Both the position numbers and the translations under genes were made by a program. The notes under the pieces were generated by a model. It saw only the letters and a list, made by a program, of their open reading frames with translations. It was not told the origin of the DNA and made no database searches. From an uncultured Carboxylicivirga sp. (GTDB lineage: Bacteria > Bacteroidota > Bacteroidia > Bacteroidales > Marinilabiliaceae): a stretch of DNA of 64,000 nt. The stretch's first letter is position 1. Each line of letters begins with the position of its first letter. Location of the stretch: NCBI RefSeq assembly GCF_963668385.1, contig NZ_OY764327.1:5836724-5900723 (forward strand). Direction: 5' to 3'. Shown one piece after another: positions 46,859-54,299 of this stretch.

Positions 46859-46889
46859 TTTGGTAATCTAAAATTATTCTCTACATTTG
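46859..46889 (+). promoter_or_regulatory. Promoter of the aromatic amino-acid operon
   Basis: TTTG (46859-46862), 19 bases, then TACATTTG (46882-46889): both Bacteroidota promoter elements at the consensus spacing. Transcription would start near 46896, thirteen bases before the leader peptide ATG. Confidence 0.8.
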
Positions 46890-46908
46890 TAGCCATAATT
46901 AACACAAG

Positions 46909-46980
46909 ATGGCTCACAACTTTTTTTATAGCTTTTATTATTTCTTTTTTATCAGATTAAAAGAGGTGGGCACGCTATAA
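46909..46980 (+). CDS. Phe/Tyr-rich leader peptide of the pheA operon
   Basis: A 23-codon ORF runs from ATG 46909 to TAA 46978-46980. Residues 5-14 read FFYSFYYFFF: six Phe and three Tyr. It lies between a consensus promoter and an intrinsic terminator, 71 bases before pheA. This is the design of an attenuation leader peptide: ribosomes stalling at Phe or Tyr codons would alter the folding of the downstream RNA. It encodes no product with a function of its own. Confidence 0.88.
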   Translation: MAHNFFYSFYYFFFIRLKEVGTL

Positions 46981-47033
46981 GATAATTTAGACAATCAAAT
47001 ATATAGAAACCCGCCTCGCAAGGCGGGTTTTTT
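46963..47033 (+). promoter_or_regulatory. Attenuator: antiterminator and intrinsic terminator before pheA
   Basis: AACCCGCCT (47008-47016) pairs with AGGCGGGTT (47021-47029) over CGCA, followed by six T: an intrinsic terminator 18 bases before the pheA ATG. GAGGTGGG (46963-46970) in the leader peptide gene can instead pair with CCCGCCTC (47010-47017), 8 bp with one G-U, and break the terminator. A ribosome stalled on the Phe/Tyr codons leaves 46963-46970 free; one at the stop codon covers it. Confidence 0.85.
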
Positions 47034-47051
47034 CATATACATACATTAACA

Positions 47052-47951
47052 ATGAAACCAAAGAAAAAAATAGCAATACAGGGTTGGCCAGGCGCAAACC
47101 ACGAAATAGCTGCCAAAGCCTATTTTGAAGAGGATAATCTGGAGATGATTCCTTGCCTTACCTTCCCCGATTTGTTTCAAACATTAAAAGAGGATAGATC
47201 CATTTACGGGATTATTGCTATTGAAAATACTTTGGTAGGTAGCATCTTGCAAAACTACACCATGCTAAAGGATAGCGATCTGGTAATTATTGGCGAATAC
47301 AAATTACGCATCAAGCACCAGTTGATGGCCTTACCCGGACAAACCATTGAAGATATCCGCGAGGTTCACTCGCACCCAATGGCTCTGGCACAATGCGAGG
47401 AGTACTTTAAAGATTATCCACACATTAAATTGATTGCTTCAGAAGATACTGCCTTAAGTGCTAAACTAATTTACGAAGAAAAACGAGAGGGTATTGCGGC
47501 TATTGCCTCTGAACTAGCAGCTGATATGTACCATCTTAATATTATTGCCAGCGGAATAGAAACCAATAAACGTAACTACACCCGCTTTTTGGTTATTACC
47601 GACAGAGCTTTAACCGAAACTGACGAATTATTAGCTCAAAACCGCATTAATAAATCATCATTGGTATTTTCATTACCTCACGATGAAGGAAGCTTATCTA
47701 AAGTGCTAACCGTTTTGAGTTTTTATAACATAAACTTAACTAAAATTCAATCTCTACCCATTGTTGGACAAGAGTGGGAGTATTTATTTTACATCGATCT
47801 TACATTTAATGATTATAAACGCTATTTACAATCATTAGATGCGATACGACCTTTGTGCAAAAAATTAAAGATTTTAGGTGAGTACGAAAAAGGAAAACAA
47901 TCATACCCTATTCAAAACGGTAATATAGTAGAAACTGCAAATCATGAATAA
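47052..47951 (+). CDS. pheA: Prephenate dehydratase
   Basis: This 299-residue enzyme converts prephenate to phenylpyruvate. The catalytic domain has IAIQGWPGANHEIAA, IENTLVGSI, SHPMALAQCEEYF and the NYTRFLVI motif (Thr-Arg-Phe at the active site). A C-terminal ACT domain (from about residue 200) has DEGSLSKVLTVL and KIQSLP, the places of the GALV and ESRP motifs, so Phe feedback is likely. No chorismate mutase domain is attached; that activity is in the third gene. It overlaps the aminotransferase gene by eight bases. Confidence 0.95.
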   Translation: MKPKKKIAIQGWPGANHEIAAKAYFEEDNLEMIPCLTFPDLFQTLKEDRSIYGIIAIENTLVGSILQNYTMLKDSDLVIIGEYKLRIKHQLMALPGQTIEDIREVHSHPMALAQCEEYFKDYPHIKLIASEDTALSAKLIYEEKREGIAAIASELAADMYHLNIIASGIETNKRNYTRFLVITDRALTETDELLAQNRINKSSLVFSLPHDEGSLSKVLTVLSFYNINLTKIQSLPIVGQEWEYLFYIDLTFNDYKRYLQSLDAIRPLCKKLKILGEYEKGKQSYPIQNGNIVETANHE

Positions 47952-49113
47952 CATAAAACCAGCCGATAGAATCAACCAGGTAGAAGAATACTACTTTTCT
48001 ATCAAACTAAAAGAGCTTGACAAATTACGTAAAGAAGGTAAGTCAATTATTAATCTGGGTATTGGAAACCCTGATATGGCCCCTGCCCCATCGGTTATTG
48101 AAGAAATTGCAAAACAGAGCCAGGTAGAGACCAATCATGGTTACCAAAGCTATGTGGGTATTCCTGAACTTCGTGAAGCTTTCAGTAGCTGGTACGAGAG
48201 ATATTACGGTGTAAAAGCCGATGCTACAACAGAGATTTTACCATTGATGGGATCAAAAGAAGGAATCATGCACATTACTCTTGCATTCCTTAATCCGGGC
48301 GATGGAGTATTGGTTCCTAATCCGGGATATCCAACTTATGCATCAGCAAGTAAAATTGCACAAGCTACTTTAATCCCTTATGATTTGGATGAAAACAATG
48401 GCTGGTTACCTAACCTCGATGAACTGGAGAAACAGGATTTGAGCAAGGTGAAACTCATGTGGATTAACTATCCAAACATGCCAACAGGTGCCAATGCCAA
48501 TACCAGCTTTTTCGAGAAGGTGATTGCCTTTGGAAAGAAGCACAACATCGTTATTTGTAACGATAACCCATATAGCTTTATCCTGAATGATTCACCTCAG
48601 AGTATTTTATCTATTGAAGGAGCCAAAGACATTGCCATTGAGCTGAACTCACTGAGCAAATCACACAATATGGCCGGATGGCGTGTGGGTGCAGCATTCT
48701 CAAACCCTACTTTCATTCAATATATATTAAGAGTGAAAAGTAATATGGACTCAGGAATGTTCAGACCCTTACAATTAGCGGCTGTTAAAGCTTTGGAACT
48801 AGACAGCGACTGGTACAGCACCGTTAACCAAGAATACAAACAACGCAGAGTACTGGTTCAGGATATAATGGACATACTGGAATGTACTTACGATACCAAT
48901 CAAACAGGAATGTTTGTATGGGCTCGTATTCCTGAGAAATATAAAGATAGTGGTGAATTATCTGACAAGATCTTATACGGAGTTGATGTATTTATCACAC
49001 CTGGCCTGATATTTGGTGAGATTGGCAACCGATACATACGAATAAGCCTGTGCACTAAACAAGAAGTATTAATTGAAGCAAAACAAAGAATAGAAAATAT
49101 AATAAAACAATAA
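47944..49113 (+). CDS. Class I/II aminotransferase, probably for aromatic amino acids
   Basis: This 389-residue PLP enzyme has INLGIGNPDMAPAP, MGSKEGIMHI, VLVPNPGYPTYAS, NYPNMPTGA, and the PLP Lys in ELNSLSKSHNMAGWRVG. It resembles the LL-diaminopimelate/aspartate aminotransferase group; its place between pheA and DAHP synthase suggests it transaminates phenylpyruvate and hydroxyphenylpyruvate. It overlaps the end of pheA and lies 2 bases before the next gene. Confidence 0.9.
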   Translation: MNNIKPADRINQVEEYYFSIKLKELDKLRKEGKSIINLGIGNPDMAPAPSVIEEIAKQSQVETNHGYQSYVGIPELREAFSSWYERYYGVKADATTEILPLMGSKEGIMHITLAFLNPGDGVLVPNPGYPTYASASKIAQATLIPYDLDENNGWLPNLDELEKQDLSKVKLMWINYPNMPTGANANTSFFEKVIAFGKKHNIVICNDNPYSFILNDSPQSILSIEGAKDIAIELNSLSKSHNMAGWRVGAAFSNPTFIQYILRVKSNMDSGMFRPLQLAAVKALELDSDWYSTVNQEYKQRRVLVQDIMDILECTYDTNQTGMFVWARIPEKYKDSGELSDKILYGVDVFITPGLIFGEIGNRYIRISLCTKQEVLIEAKQRIENIIKQ

Positions 49114-49115
49114 CC

Positions 49116-50216
49116 ATGGAAAATAAACTGGATTTACTACCATTGGAATTACCAGGATACAAACTGGAGCGTCCTATGTTGATTGCAGGCCCTTGTAGCG
49201 CCGAAACAGAAGAGCAAGTATTAACTACAGCTAAACAACTAGCTGCTCAGGGAGTGAAAATATTCCGTTCAGGAATTTGGAAACCACGTACTCGCCCGGG
49301 TGCTTTTGAAGGAGTTGGAACCGTTGGTTTACCTTGGTTGAAAAAGGTGAAAGAAGAAACGGGTATGTTTATCAGCATTGAGGTAGCCACAGCTCATCAT
49401 GTATACGAAGCCTTGAAATTTGGTGTGGATATGCTTTGGGTAGGTGCTCGTACTACTGCTAACCCTTTTGCAGTGCAGGAAGTAGCTGATGCATTAGCGG
49501 GTGTTGACATTCCTGTGTTGGTTAAAAACCCGGTAAATCCCGATTTAGAATTATGGATTGGTGCTATGGAAAGAATCAACCAGGCAGGCATTAAGCGTTT
49601 AGGTGCTATCCACCGCGGATTCAGTACTTACGACAAAACCAAATATCGTAACAATCCTGAGTGGCAGATTCCTATTGAGCTTCGTCGTCGTATTCCTAAT
49701 TTGCCAATCATTACTGACCCTAGCCACATCTCGGGTAAGAGTGAAATGATTGCTGAAGTATCGCAGGAAGCAATGGACTTAAACTTCGATGGTTTAATCA
49801 TCGAATCGCATATGTGTCCTGAAAAAGCATGGAGTGATGCCAGCCAACAGGTAACACCCGATCATTTAAAAACAATAATGGATGACTTGGTGGTTCGCGA
49901 ATCAGCTATTGGTGAAAAACCACGTGTTGACTTAGATGAGTTACGTAAAAAAATCGATTTACTTGATCAACAATTGCTTGAGACATTAAGCTCACGTATG
50001 AAGATTTCGGAAGCTATTGGTAAGTACAAATATGATAACGATATTACCATTCTTCAAACTCGTCGTTACGATGAAATTATGAATAAACGTCGTAATCAGG
50101 CTGAGGAAAACAAATTGAATCCTGAATTTGTGGTAAAAGTGTTCGAACACATTCACGAGGAATCAATCAATCGTCAGAATATTGTGATGAATAAAGAATT
50201 ATCTAAGAAAAAATAA
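49116..50216 (+). CDS. Bifunctional DAHP synthase / chorismate mutase
   Basis: This 366-residue fusion has an N-terminal DAHP synthase (PMLIAGPCSAET, IFRSGIWKPRTRPGAFEG, MLWVGARTTANPFAVQE, IHRGFS, PIITDPSHISGK) and a C-terminal AroQ-type chorismate mutase (about 270-360; VDLDELRKKIDLLDQQLLETLSSRM, IGKYKYDNDI). It supplies both the entry of the shikimate pathway and prephenate. Physical fusion lets prephenate-branch signals control entry. A terminator follows it. Confidence 0.93.
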   Translation: MENKLDLLPLELPGYKLERPMLIAGPCSAETEEQVLTTAKQLAAQGVKIFRSGIWKPRTRPGAFEGVGTVGLPWLKKVKEETGMFISIEVATAHHVYEALKFGVDMLWVGARTTANPFAVQEVADALAGVDIPVLVKNPVNPDLELWIGAMERINQAGIKRLGAIHRGFSTYDKTKYRNNPEWQIPIELRRRIPNLPIITDPSHISGKSEMIAEVSQEAMDLNFDGLIIESHMCPEKAWSDASQQVTPDHLKTIMDDLVVRESAIGEKPRVDLDELRKKIDLLDQQLLETLSSRMKISEAIGKYKYDNDITILQTRRYDEIMNKRRNQAEENKLNPEFVVKVFEHIHEESINRQNIVMNKELSKKK

Positions 50217-50220
50217 TATC

Positions 50221-50258
50221 AAATTAAGGAGTAGTGATAATGCTACTCCTTAATTTTT
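50221..50258 (+). terminator. Terminator between the DAHP synthase and tyrA genes
   Basis: AAATTAAGGAGTAG (50221-50234) pairs with CTACTCCTTAATTT (50243-50256) over 8 bases. tyrA then starts at 50341, so it probably needs read-through or its own promoter. Confidence 0.88.
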
Positions 50259-50340: not shown

Positions 50341-51114
50341 ATGAAAATCTGTATTCTTGGAGCAGGGAAAATGGGTACCTGGTTAACCGATGCCCTTTGT
50401 CTCGATCATGAAGTTGCTATTTTTGACCGCGATATGAGCAAGCTTCGATACGTATTTAATACGCAACGTTTAACTAAATTCGAAGAAATTACCGAGTTTG
50501 CTCCTGAGATTTTAATCAATGCAGTAACACTTAAATATACCTTACCTGCTTTCAAAGAGGTATTACCCTATGTTCCTAAAACATGTATTTTATCCGATAT
50601 TTCATCGGTTAAAACAGGCCTTCAGGAATTTTACGAAGAAAGTGGTTATCGTTACGTGTCAACTCACCCTATGTTTGGTCCTACCTTTGCCAATCTTAAG
50701 GATTTGAGCATGCATCATGCCATTATTATTACACAAGGAGATCATTTGGGCAAAACCTTTTTTAAAGATTTCTTCAGCTCTTTAAAACTAAATATTCACG
50801 AATACAGTTTTGACGGACATGACGAAACCATTGCTTACTCTTTGTCTATCCCCTTTGCATCATCGTTGGTTTTTGGTGCGTGTATGAAACATCAGGAGGC
50901 TCCGGGTACAACCTTCAGCAAGCATATGGATATTGCCAAAGGTTTGATGTCGGAAGAAGATTATTTATTAACTGAGATTCTTTTTAACCCATACACTTAC
51001 CAACAGGTTGAGAATATACGTTTTCAACTTAAGAACTTATTGGGTCTGATTGAGAAGAAAGATACCGAAGGACTACAAGAGTTTATAAATATGGTTCGAA
51101 AGAATATTGAGTAA
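50341..51114 (+). CDS. tyrA: Prephenate dehydrogenase
   Basis: This 257-residue NAD(P)-dependent enzyme makes hydroxyphenylpyruvate from prephenate for Tyr. It has ICILGAGKMGTWLTDAL, LSDISSVKTGL, STHPMFGPTFANL, and a C-terminal dimerisation helix region. The order pheA, aminotransferase, DAHP synthase-mutase, tyrA is a complete terminal branch of Phe/Tyr synthesis. A 125-base gap with a terminator separates it from the rest. Its stop is followed 5 bases later by the repeat array. Confidence 0.9.
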   Translation: MKICILGAGKMGTWLTDALCLDHEVAIFDRDMSKLRYVFNTQRLTKFEEITEFAPEILINAVTLKYTLPAFKEVLPYVPKTCILSDISSVKTGLQEFYEESGYRYVSTHPMFGPTFANLKDLSMHHAIIITQGDHLGKTFFKDFFSSLKLNIHEYSFDGHDETIAYSLSIPFASSLVFGACMKHQEAPGTTFSKHMDIAKGLMSEEDYLLTEILFNPYTYQQVENIRFQLKNLLGLIEKKDTEGLQEFINMVRKNIE

Positions 51115-51119
51115 CCATT

Positions 51120-51863
51120 CCCCCCTCAGTCCTGCGGACAGCTCCCCAAGGGGAGCATGACCCCAAGTGAGCTGCCGGTAATGTAAATCAATCTTCCCCC
51201 AAGGGGAAGTGGTCGCAGACCGATGGGGGATCGTACCAGAAGAAAATAACTAAAGTAGGCAGAAGGATATTGAACACGCAGAACGATTCTGAACCCCTCT
51301 GTCCTGTGGGCTGCTTTCCAAAGAGAGTATTCCCCCTCAGTCAGTGAAATACTGACAGCTCCCCAAGGGGAGCATGACCCCAAGTGAGCTGCCGGTAATG
51401 TAAATCAATCTTCCCCCAAGGGGAAGTGGTCGCAGACCGATGGGGGATCGTACCAGAAGAAAATAACTAAAGTAGGCGGAGGGATATTGAACACACAGAA
51501 CAATTCAGAACCCCTCTGTCCTGTGGGCAGCTCCTCAAAGAGAGCATTCCCCCTCAGTCAGTGAAATACTGACAGCTCCCCAAAGGGAGCATAACCCCAA
51601 GTGAGCTGCCGGTAATGTAAATCAATCTTCCCCCAAGGGGAAGTGGTCGTAGACCGATGGGGGATCGTACCAGAAGAAAATAACTAAAGTAGGCAGAAGG
51701 ATATTGAACACACAGAACAATTCAGAACCCCTCTGTCCTGTGGGCAGCTCCTCAAAGGGAGTATTCCCCCTCAGTCAGTGAAATACTGACAGCTCCTCAA
51801 AGAGAGCATGACCCCAAGTGAGCTGCCGGTAATGTAAATCAATCTTCCCCCAAGGGGAAGTGG
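51120..51863. repeat. 217-bp tandem repeat array of double-hairpin modules, left part
   Basis: The motif CTTCCCCCAAGGGGAAG starts at 51193, 51410, 51627 and 51844, exactly 217 bases apart. Each unit has an A module (CCCCCTCAGTC, hairpin, GACAGCTCCCC, AA, GGGGAGC) and a B module (CTTCCCCC, AA, GGGGAAG, TGGTCGCAGACC, GATGGGGG); the reverse complement of B resembles A, so they are inverted partners. The first A hairpin reads GTCCTGCGGAC where later units have GTCAGTGAAATACTGAC: different sequence, same fold. The conserved spacer begins ATCGTACCAG. The fourth B module is broken by an IS21-family element. Confidence 0.9.
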
Positions 51864-51935
51864 TGTTTATTTCAATCAGAAAGTATACCAGTATTTCAAT
51901 CCAAAAGTATACCATTTCTTTTAAAAAGGAAAGAG

Positions 51936-51999: not shown

Positions 52000-52755
52000 T
52001 CATTTTTTCATCATTTGCTTTGTTTCTTTTAGTCTGTACGATTCACCATTCATATTTATTAAGTATGCCTTATGAGTCAGTCTGTCGACAAGAGCAGCTG
52101 TTAATACTGGATCTCCAAATATTTCTTCCCATCGATCAAAACCAAGATTGGTTGTAATAATGGTTGATTTACGTCCAACCCTTAATGATAAATGGTTAAA
52201 AAGAAGTTCAGAACCTTCTTTATCAAAGGAGATATAACCAAATTCATCACATATAACCAGATCGTATTTTTCAAACTTAAGTTCCATTTGGCGTAATGAA
52301 CGTTCAGAGTGAGCCTCTCGTAGTTGGGTTAGCAGTCGGTGCACCGTTGTAAAAAGCACTTTGTAGCCTTGCATGCAAGCTTTAAGACCTAAGCCTGTTG
52401 CAATATGAGTTTTACCCGTTCCCGGATTACCTGCCAATACTATGTTTTGACCTTCAGCGATAAAATCAAGCCTTTCCAACAATGGTAGTTTTTCATTTGC
52501 ATCGGGTGGCAACTGGTCTCTTTTTAAATCACCCAGATACATTTTAGCAGGAAAACCGGCTAACCTGATCTGTGATTTCTTTCGGTTTTCAAGGCGTACT
52601 TCAAACTCTTTTTCCATTAATTTGAGCAGATATTGTTCGTAATCCAGATTTTCTTTGGCTGCTTCCTGGGCTATATGCTTAAAATCTCTTCTGAAAACAG
52701 GCAATCTAAGCTCTTTGCTGTATTTGATGATTTCGTTATTTGTATAATTATCCAT
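52000..52755 (-). CDS. istB: IS21 helper ATPase IstB
   Basis: This 251-residue AAA+ ATPase has Walker A GNPGTGKTH (109-117) and Walker B LVICDEFGYISFD, followed by the sensor STIITTNLGFDRWEEIFGD. In IS21 elements it binds target DNA and activates the IstA transposase. It lies 11 bases downstream of istA and is full length, so the element could be active. Confidence 0.95.
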   Translation of the reverse strand: MDNYTNNEIIKYSKELRLPVFRRDFKHIAQEAAKENLDYEQYLLKLMEKEFEVRLENRKKSQIRLAGFPAKMYLGDLKRDQLPPDANEKLPLLERLDFIAEGQNIVLAGNPGTGKTHIATGLGLKACMQGYKVLFTTVHRLLTQLREAHSERSLRQMELKFEKYDLVICDEFGYISFDKEGSELLFNHLSLRVGRKSTIITTNLGFDRWEEIFGDPVLTAALVDRLTHKAYLINMNGESYRLKETKQMMKK

Positions 52756-52766
52756 GACTTGATTTT

Positions 52767-54299
52767 TTAATTTAGTAATGCTGTTATTTGAGATAATTGC
52801 TGTTTGGCCAGTCCGGTTGTTAAATCTGCTTGCTGTTGATAATTACTGTCTTGCTTATTCCCCAATAAGGCTTTTATCTGTTCTGATGTAATTTGTTGCA
52901 CACCGCAATCCAACAACCTTTTTACTGTGTTTTCAAGCCGTTCTCCTTCAATAGCGTATTTTTGGCAATAGGTTAATAGCTCTATAAAATCCTTAGGTAC
53001 ATCTATAAAAAATTCATCATACAGCCCTTTAAGATATTTACTGCAAGCCAGTGCTACACTTCCTTTTAGAGCTCCGGGCTTTTGCTTAAAAGTGGTAAGA
53101 TAATGCTCTATGGTTATGACCCATTGATGCAGCCCATAACATCGGGCATGCTTTGCAAGTAAAACACCTTCGGCATAAACAAGTATGTGATGGCTCATTA
53201 CCCTCACTTCCAACATGTGCCCAACCAAACGATCCGGCACTGAGTAACGATTGGTTCGGTAGCAAATAGTGGCATATTTGTCTACCCTAAGAAATTCTTC
53301 TTCGTAACACGATAATTTAGGAGGGCAGGATAATAAGGCTTGCTTCTCAATAGCAAATAACTCTGCTGCTGTTTTTCCGGTTAGTTGTTGTTTGGTACTA
53401 TTGACCTTTTGTATGGCTGTGTCAAGTTTCTTTTGTGCTGATTCGATAGTGTCAAAATGATCTGTCAGACTAAAAGCTTTACGTCTTATGTATTCAACAC
53501 TTCGTTCTACATGTCCTTTTTCATTGCCTCTGTAAGCATTGCAAAAGCGATGACTAAATTGATAATGACCTCGCATCCTTAATAGTGCTTTTGTGGGCTC
53601 TTTCTCATGTCTGCCAACAAAATTTGCCACTGCAACACGCATATTATCATATATCATTTGCTTATAAACTCCACCGGCAAATTCCATGAAAGAAACATGA
53701 GACTCCATAAAAGACAAAGTATCCTGACGCTGGTAAATGGCTGCATATCGATAATTGCTGTAAGTAGAGGTAAAAACAGCTAATTGTAATCGTACCAATC
53801 GTCCCTGGATGTAAAGTTTTATTTCACCCCAATCAAACTCACAACTCTCTCCAGGTTGGTACTCCTGGCGGATATATGCTTCTTTTGATGATGGAATGTT
53901 TTCTTTTTCCCGGATGTAATTACAAACGGTGGTATAGCCTATTTTAAATCCACATTCATTTAACTGCTCATGAATATCCTTTTTCTTCATTATTTGCTTG
54001 CGCAAACCGCCTTTTTGCTTTTGTGCATTAAGCAACAATAATCGGTCTATTTCTGCTTGAACTTCTTGTGTTAGCTTCAACTTGCTTCTGTCACCTTGTT
54101 TGTATTTTATTGGCTCTGTAAGGTAGTGTGTTAATAATGTTGTTGAACTCTTGTTTGACTGGCAATACTGTTCGTATTCTTCTATGTACTTTTTTACCGT
54201 TTTTCGGCTAATATTTAGTTCCCTTGATATGGCACGTTGACTTTTGCCTTCTCGGTAACTACTTATGATTATTTCTTGCTTTGTATACATACTTATCAT
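52767..54299 (-). CDS. istA: IS21 transposase IstA
   Basis: This 510-residue DDE transposase has an N-terminal helix-turn-helix (GKSQRAISRELNISRKTVKKYI) and an integrase core with Asp in CEFDWGEIKLY, Asp in MIYDNMRVAV and Glu in NEKGHVERSVEYI. A second start at MYTKQEI (54290) is possible. It is intact and followed by istB in the usual order. Confidence 0.95.
   Translation of the reverse strand: MISMYTKQEIIISSYREGKSQRAISRELNISRKTVKKYIEEYEQYCQSNKSSTTLLTHYLTEPIKYKQGDRSKLKLTQEVQAEIDRLLLLNAQKQKGGLRKQIMKKKDIHEQLNECGFKIGYTTVCNYIREKENIPSSKEAYIRQEYQPGESCEFDWGEIKLYIQGRLVRLQLAVFTSTYSNYRYAAIYQRQDTLSFMESHVSFMEFAGGVYKQMIYDNMRVAVANFVGRHEKEPTKALLRMRGHYQFSHRFCNAYRGNEKGHVERSVEYIRRKAFSLTDHFDTIESAQKKLDTAIQKVNSTKQQLTGKTAAELFAIEKQALLSCPPKLSCYEEEFLRVDKYATICYRTNRYSVPDRLVGHMLEVRVMSHHILVYAEGVLLAKHARCYGLHQWVITIEHYLTTFKQKPGALKGSVALACSKYLKGLYDEFFIDVPKDFIELLTYCQKYAIEGERLENTVKRLLDCGVQQITSEQIKALLGNKQDSNYQQQADLTTGLAKQQLSQITALLN

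Follow-up and report, generated by a model that had tools for sequence, protein, structure and literature searches.

At this locus an intrinsic terminator lies shortly ahead of pheA. In the stretch of DNA analysed here (the window; 64,000 nt of an uncultured Carboxylicivirga sp., contig NZ_OY764327.1, positions 5,836,724–5,900,723, with all coordinates below counted within the window), the terminator sits 233 nt past the stop codon of an upstream kinase gene and 19 nt ahead of pheA, and it follows a short open reading frame (ORF) rich in Phe and Tyr codons. Stalled-ribosome attenuation is a textbook mechanism in enterobacteria, and its hallmarks, namely a run of end-product codons within a short ORF, an intrinsic terminator, a competing antiterminator and a predicted protector over the sensing codons, are all found at this locus. 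The element very probably controls the pheA operon by ribosome-mediated transcription attenuation, sensing the charged forms of Phe-tRNA and Tyr-tRNA.

The leader and the operon

The features of the locus, all on the plus strand, are as follows.

46859–46889 (+): promoter of the Bacteroidota type, read from the sequence; TTTG (46859–46862), a 19-nt spacer and TACATTTG (46882–46889)
46909–46980 (+): leader ORF of 23 codons (ATG at 46909, stop at 46978–46980), peptide MAHNFFYSFYYFFFIRLKEVGTL; read from the sequence and kept in relatives
46921–46950 (+): sensing codons FFYSFYYFFF, residues 5–14 (six Phe, three Tyr, one Ser); read from the sequence
46924–46982 (+): predicted protector (1:2) hairpin, 46924–46932/46974–46982 and 46938–46948/46959–46969; from the MFE fold
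46963–46970 (+): antiterminator segment 2, GAGGTGGG; pairs with 47010–47017, with covariation
47010–47017 (+): segment 3, CCCGCCTC, common to antiterminator and terminator; from sequence and covariation
47007–47033 (+): intrinsic terminator (3:4), with a 10-bp stem (47007–47016/47021–47030), a 4-nt loop (47017–47020) and a T-run to 47033; from sequence, with covariation in relatives
47052–47951 (+): pheA, prephenate dehydratase (PF00800, E 5.1e-58)
47944–49113 (+): aminotransferase class I/II (PF00155)
49116–50216 (+): DAHP synthase fused to chorismate mutase (PF00793 and PF01817)
50221–50256 (+): terminator-like hairpin past the end of the DAHP synthase gene and ahead of tyrA, with 16 pairs, four of them G-C; consensus match only
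50341–51114 (+): tyrA, prephenate dehydrogenase (PF02153)

An earlier note on this DNA had described a promoter, a 23-codon ORF, an antiterminator and a terminator in that order before pheA, and its coordinates proved exact. The 8-bp alternative pairing that it drew on the 5' arm of the terminator (GAGGTGGG with CCCGCCTC) was reread and holds, with one G-U pair, and the downstream genes, said to make both Phe and Tyr, give Pfam matches in agreement. The predicted protector hairpin, absent from that note, completes the classical three-way switch.

Transcription would start at the promoter at 46859–46889, and the leader ORF begins 19 nt past its end. This promoter is absent from the output of a generic sigma-70 scan, since promoters of the Bacteroidota type lie outside the scope of that scan. 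At the distal end of the operon, the hairpin at 50221–50256 may partly uncouple tyrA from the first three genes. Further downstream, positions 51137–51864 hold a tandem array of 3.4 copies of a 217-nt unit (96% alike), located between tyrA and an IS21-type element on the minus strand (52000–54299) that carries istB-like ATPase and istA-like transposase genes.

In the proposed mechanism, a ribosome would enter the leader ORF behind RNA polymerase. When charged Phe-tRNA and Tyr-tRNA are both in good supply, it would pass the aromatic codons, reach the stop codon and cover 46963–46970, or the protector hairpin would mask that segment; with segment 2 blocked, segment 3 would be free, the terminator at 47007–47033 would form and transcription would end. 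With Phe or Tyr scarce, the ribosome would stall on 46921–46950 and melt the protector hairpin that contains these codons, leaving segment 2, just past its leading edge, free to pair with segment 3. This 2:3 pairing would prevent the terminator from forming, and pheA, the aminotransferase gene, the DAHP synthase/chorismate mutase gene and perhaps tyrA would be transcribed.

The predicted folds are consistent with such a switch. The leader RNA of the window folds at −39.3 kcal/mol (z = −6.18, 200 shuffles) and its antiterminator stretch alone at −16.6 kcal/mol (z = −4.26), and the protector, antiterminator and terminator helices (−15.2, −16.6 and −16.0 kcal/mol respectively) are nearly equal in strength, which suits the requirement of a switch.

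Conservation, chance controls and covariation

Comparison with related genomes, which the earlier note had proposed as a check, bears out the conservation of the F/Y-rich ORF. The sample of relatives comprised 60 genomes, 44 of them with PheA, from which 43 loci were fetched (that of G041 is missing); one locus with 3 nt upstream of pheA (L014) was dropped throughout, leaving 42 testable loci of the family and order, the window's own included. An ORF with at least six aromatic residues in ten precedes pheA in all 42. A phylum-wide sample of 296 genomes, 258 with PheA, was examined for 2/2 further members of the order, 66/66 other members of the class and 34 of the 189 genomes from other classes; an aromatic leader precedes pheA in 2/2, 54/66 and 5/34 of these respectively, and the remaining 29 genomes of other classes are without one. 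The twelve class genomes without a leader belong to just three families: f29 accounts for six, f36 for two and f34 for four, out of seven f34 genomes. In three of the f34 misses a protein-coding stretch, which from its translated motifs we take to be an aroA-like gene or its neighbourhood, lies upstream of pheA, so that pheA seems to have been relocated.

In named genomes, a complete attenuator was found by script in 73 of the 80 loci, out of 583, that are nearest the query; five of the other seven have a leader ORF by eye that the script missed, and two (L263 and L279) are too short upstream. The locus sets overlap (L255 is L005, L256 is L015 and L258 is L028). RNA models built from the leaders match 39 of 148 and 114 of 295 genomes of the order, under strict filters by which weak matches are lost. 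Judged from these genomes, the leader is widespread in the class Bacteroidia and not particular to the species of the window; pheA attenuation would span much of the class, including the human gut species Phocaeicola vulgatus, whose strain ATCC 8482 is among the 73.

Of the 99 leaders, 61 have the promoter element TAnnTTTG no more than 75 nt ahead of the leader start, as against 5.6% of shuffled stretches, and 45 of these 61 have TTG 16–25 nt further upstream. A Shine-Dalgarno-like AGGA, GGAG or GAGG at 4–18 nt upstream of the start codon occurs in 0/97 leaders (L113 and L051 left out of the count), where shuffles predict 4.6%, and position −3 is A in 61% (n = 97). If attenuation operates on leaders that have no Shine-Dalgarno sequence, translation must follow transcription closely at these leaders; transcription–translation coupling in the phylum would then be directly testable with one reporter.

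Several controls address how often such a leader would arise by chance. In the 64-kb window, on both strands, the leader ORF is the only one of 8–45 codons with at least eight aromatic residues in ten, and three ORFs of that length reach seven. At seven in ten, an ORF is found in 97 of 131 regions upstream of pheA but in 11 of 1310 dinucleotide-shuffled copies, and at eight in ten in 70 of the 131 but in one of the 1310. Searched against its own genome, the leader model gives one match (E 2.1e-14), the next best having E 0.19; the weak matches elsewhere (E at least 0.19) were inspected and judged to be chance.

At 99 loci the competing pairing was scored as the best match that the sequence following the aromatic codons can make with the 5' arm of the terminator. 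Own partners score 21.1 on average and shuffled stretches 12.3; when partners are swapped among loci the mean is 14.3 (sd 0.34), and the highest value in 5000 swaps is 15.5; for the 47 distinct arms the values are 20.9 for own and 13.8 for exchanged partners (sd 0.48; highest of 20000, 15.9). Measured against its own shuffles, the pairing is significant at p 0.05 in 87 of 99 loci, the other 12 failing to beat 95% of theirs. In the set of 47 distinct arms, 13 members pair best with their own arm, and for 33 it ranks in the top five.

In the family alignment (31 sequences, 30 distinct), the 2:3 helix is paired in 95.0% of cells and holds 14 compensatory cells, compared to 5.0 in shuffled alignments (0/500 reach the real value) and 0–3 when slid; its score is 0.228 against 0.142 shuffled (0/500 reach). 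Two of the five measures of covariation do not stand out from the shuffled alignments: the number of pairs in which both bases have changed (2 against 1.1; 108/500 reach) and the number of pair types (8 against 7.2; 113/500 reach). The terminator itself has 26 compensatory cells, as against 6.9 shuffled. The sequences are related and these statistics carry no tree correction. Covariation between 46963–46970 and 47010–47017, the second check that the earlier note had suggested, is thus seen both on exchange of partners and in the compensatory cells. In a wide alignment (A2, 25 loci) segment 2 was out of register; covariation was not counted on it for that reason, and partner exchange was substituted.

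Spacing, codon composition and rival explanations

The position of segment 2 is tied to the aromatic codons. Across the 99 leaders it starts a median of 13 nt past the first base of the last aromatic codon (5–95%: 9–18), and in 96% of them 8–19 nt past that base, compared to 26% when shuffled; in the window the distance is 15 nt. The stop codon, by contrast, varies in position between 5 nt ahead of segment 2 and about 28 nt past its first base (5–95%), and its distance from segment 2 scatters about four times as widely (sd 10.9 against 2.7 for the last aromatic codon; distances of at least 30 left out). A ribosome that has the last aromatic codon in its A site should reach 12–13 nt downstream, so that a stall anywhere in the aromatic run would leave segment 2 free. 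A ribosome at the stop codon of the window should cover 46963–46970. In L025 and L028 the stop lies 38–40 nt downstream, too far for a terminating ribosome to cover segment 2, which counts against the model.

A predicted protector could serve the same end. In the leader fold of the window the aromatic codons are paired with segment 2 and most of the antiterminator segment is hidden; folding of whole leaders hides half or more of segment 2 in 93 of 97 cases (mean z −2.05, with z < −1 in 76). L040 and L113, in which segment 2 was misassigned, were left out of both protector analyses. In the RNAalifold consensus of 31 family members the last Phe codons pair with the start of segment 2, with no covariation at that point; the protector shows little covariation because its 5' arm hardly varies. 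When only sequence that precedes the aromatic codons is allowed to pair, the result is significant over the whole set (15.9 against 13.4, sd 0.26), but at individual loci it is weak, with p ≤ 0.05 in 26 of 97; this upstream-only arm was set aside, as whole-leader folds with the Phe codons as the 5' arm explain the masking better.

What the leader senses is suggested by its codons. Within the ten-codon windows of the 99 leaders, 782 of 990 codons are TTT, TTC, TAT or TAC, and where operons are split the mix, with exceptions, follows the downstream genes. Ahead of a lone pheA (the 3.4 kb that follow give no match to an aminotransferase, DAHP synthase or TyrA) in three genomes (G053, G358 and G538), the leaders run Phe without Tyr (MTRFFTHFFFFF, SFRFFFFFAFFF and TFRFFFFFAFFF). 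Seven leaders precede tyrA or an aminotransferase gene with no pheA between, and six of them have 56–67% Tyr among Phe and Tyr codons, the exception being that of G599 (36%). In the split-operon loci (L247/L248 of G053, L249/L250 of G358 and L251/L254 of G538), the Phe-only leader stands before the lone pheA and the Tyr-rich one before tyrA or aminotransferase-aroF-tyrA; tyrA of G053 and G466 was confirmed by Pfam, and the operons of G430 and G459 were read only up to the DAHP synthase gene.

Leaders of joined operons (97 in all) have a median Tyr share of 0.33 (29 in the family) and 0.44 (68 at order level), and only one of them, L027, whose ORF is ambiguous, is without Tyr. Rank tests give p 0.0005 and 0.0017, ignoring dependence among leaders (G358, G538, G459 and G599 belong to a single genus, each tandem contributes two leaders and some genomes are entered twice). 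Beside L027, L280, which lies outside the 97, is a second exception: its leader is Phe-only (MKHFFFTSFCFFFFFFF...), yet pheA is followed there by aminotransferase and DAHP synthase genes. Since composition tracks the downstream genes in split operons, the mixed Phe/Tyr leader of the window fits an operon serving both amino acids, and the split operons constitute a natural experiment on what the leader senses. Trp codons lie within or end the Phe/Tyr run in 35 of the 99 leaders (for example L016, L017, L024, L028, L029 and L032), which look as if they sense the third aromatic amino acid in those species.

Other explanations have to be weighed against attenuation. The hairpin could be no more than a terminator or insulator, such as one serving the upstream kinase gene, with the small ORF a by-product of T-rich sequence, as might be expected in an A+T-rich region where aromatic codons are themselves T-rich. 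The full detector (ORF, terminator and antiterminator pairing) is nevertheless positive in 97 of 131 real regions but in only one of 1310 shuffled ones, and twice within a region in five real and no shuffled cases; the covarying pairing competes with the terminator and would be purposeless in a plain one; and the hairpin stands far from the kinase stop, yet directly before pheA. Given the covariation and the conserved spacing, a plain terminator is extremely improbable. The same very slight probability attaches to a ribosome-independent leader RNA (T-box, riboswitch or protein-binding attenuator) that happens to contain an ORF. The RNA is strongly folded, as noted above, but a search with Rfam 15 puts no family at or above its gathering score, either in the window or at the loci of 20 relatives, the conserved feature is the in-frame run of Phe and Tyr codons, and the spacing of segment 2 is fixed to the last aromatic codon rather than to the stop.

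A little less remote, though still very unlikely, is a leader that senses general ribosome slowing or arrest by the nascent chain instead of the charging of Phe- and Tyr-tRNA, since a hydrophobic aromatic run might itself stall the ribosome and the ten residues of the aromatic run vary less than the tail of the peptide. Against this, the order and kind of the residues are free to vary (F, Y and sometimes W), and the shift from Phe-only to Tyr-rich leaders in split operons suits codon sensing and not a fixed arrest peptide. Attenuation through Phe and Tyr codons is thus the preferred reading in what follows.

Known attenuators and tandem forms

The nearest known system is enterobacterial pheL/pheA (RF01859, Phe_leader), with which the window shares a leader ORF with Phe codons, alternative protector, antiterminator and terminator structures and a position directly before pheA. 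The RF01859 covariance model aligns end to end (1–125) to 46908–47036 with the terminator matched, scoring 36.9 bits where the gathering score is 55, and the relation is a working resemblance and not membership. The window differs in mixing Tyr with Phe codons, in lacking a Shine-Dalgarno sequence and in its Bacteroidota-type promoter, and its operon additionally contains the DAHP synthase, aminotransferase and tyrA genes. E. coli pheL has Phe codons and is not known to contain Tyr codons.

Going by its name, the Bacteroid-trp motif (RF01692) is a trp leader. It has no match in the window's own genome (the control genome, Bacteroides ihuae, matches) and none at gathering score in the window or the loci of the 20 relatives. 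The motif was reported as a probable cis-regulatory RNA of Bacteroidetes (Weinberg et al. 2010, PMC2864571). Strong clues for leader-peptide attenuation before amino-acid biosynthesis operons were described in Flavobacterium psychrophilum, of the same class (PMC9723704); the main text of that paper leaves phenylalanine unmentioned, and its passages on attenuation specify neither an operon or amino acid nor an alignment or covariation. In B. thetaiotaomicron, 5' UTRs that contain short ORFs have been remarked upon (PMC7366714), and leader genes near structural genes have been counted in Bacteroidetes (PMC4833913). Within open-licence papers, no description was found of a Bacteroidia-wide Phe/Tyr leader, its tandem form or the lack of a Shine-Dalgarno sequence, which is weak evidence of novelty. 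Lopatovskaya et al. (2010) reportedly treat attenuation of amino-acid operons in bacteria, and their work may cover part of the present finding. The element represents a variant of the classical mechanism that is widespread and had not been filed before.

In some genomes of the order, two leader-model matches lie less than 200 nt apart. By script, two complete attenuators precede pheA at 16 of 68 distinct order-level loci (L161, L163, L167, L176, L178, L179, L180, L187, L221, L227–L232 and L244), a proportion not usable as a frequency because some loci were fetched since their match positions already hinted at a tandem; L048, L081 and L113 are tandem outside the order. In total there are 19 such genomes in about a dozen families, by the family numbering of the search, and each unit has an ORF, an antiterminator and a terminator; the weakest units are those of L113 and the one that comes first in L036/L178. 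The count leaves out L175, whose second unit is cut by the contig end, and L202, known from model positions only. A second aromatic ORF in L032 was rejected as a tandem attenuator, being weak (pairing score 6). Tandem attenuators are known from Salmonella mgtCBR, with a leader that contains two short ORFs and with control over transcription of the coding region (PMC3641672). mgtCBR is not an amino-acid biosynthesis operon; in the tandems found here, both units carry runs of the same aromatic codons.

Taken together, these observations are probably best read as an ancient dual Phe/Tyr attenuator of the Bacteroidia on leaders lacking a Shine-Dalgarno sequence, hence with ribosomes that would closely trail RNA polymerase. 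Its codon mix would have been retuned when operons split (Phe-only for a lone pheA, Tyr-rich for tyrA or aminotransferase operons), and in several families it would have been doubled, with both units sensing the same amino acids, to yield a switch that is steeper and leaks less. The tandem forms offer a natural experiment on why two attenuators of identical type should stand in series. The window itself carries a single attenuator, as do all 73 complete loci of the named set.
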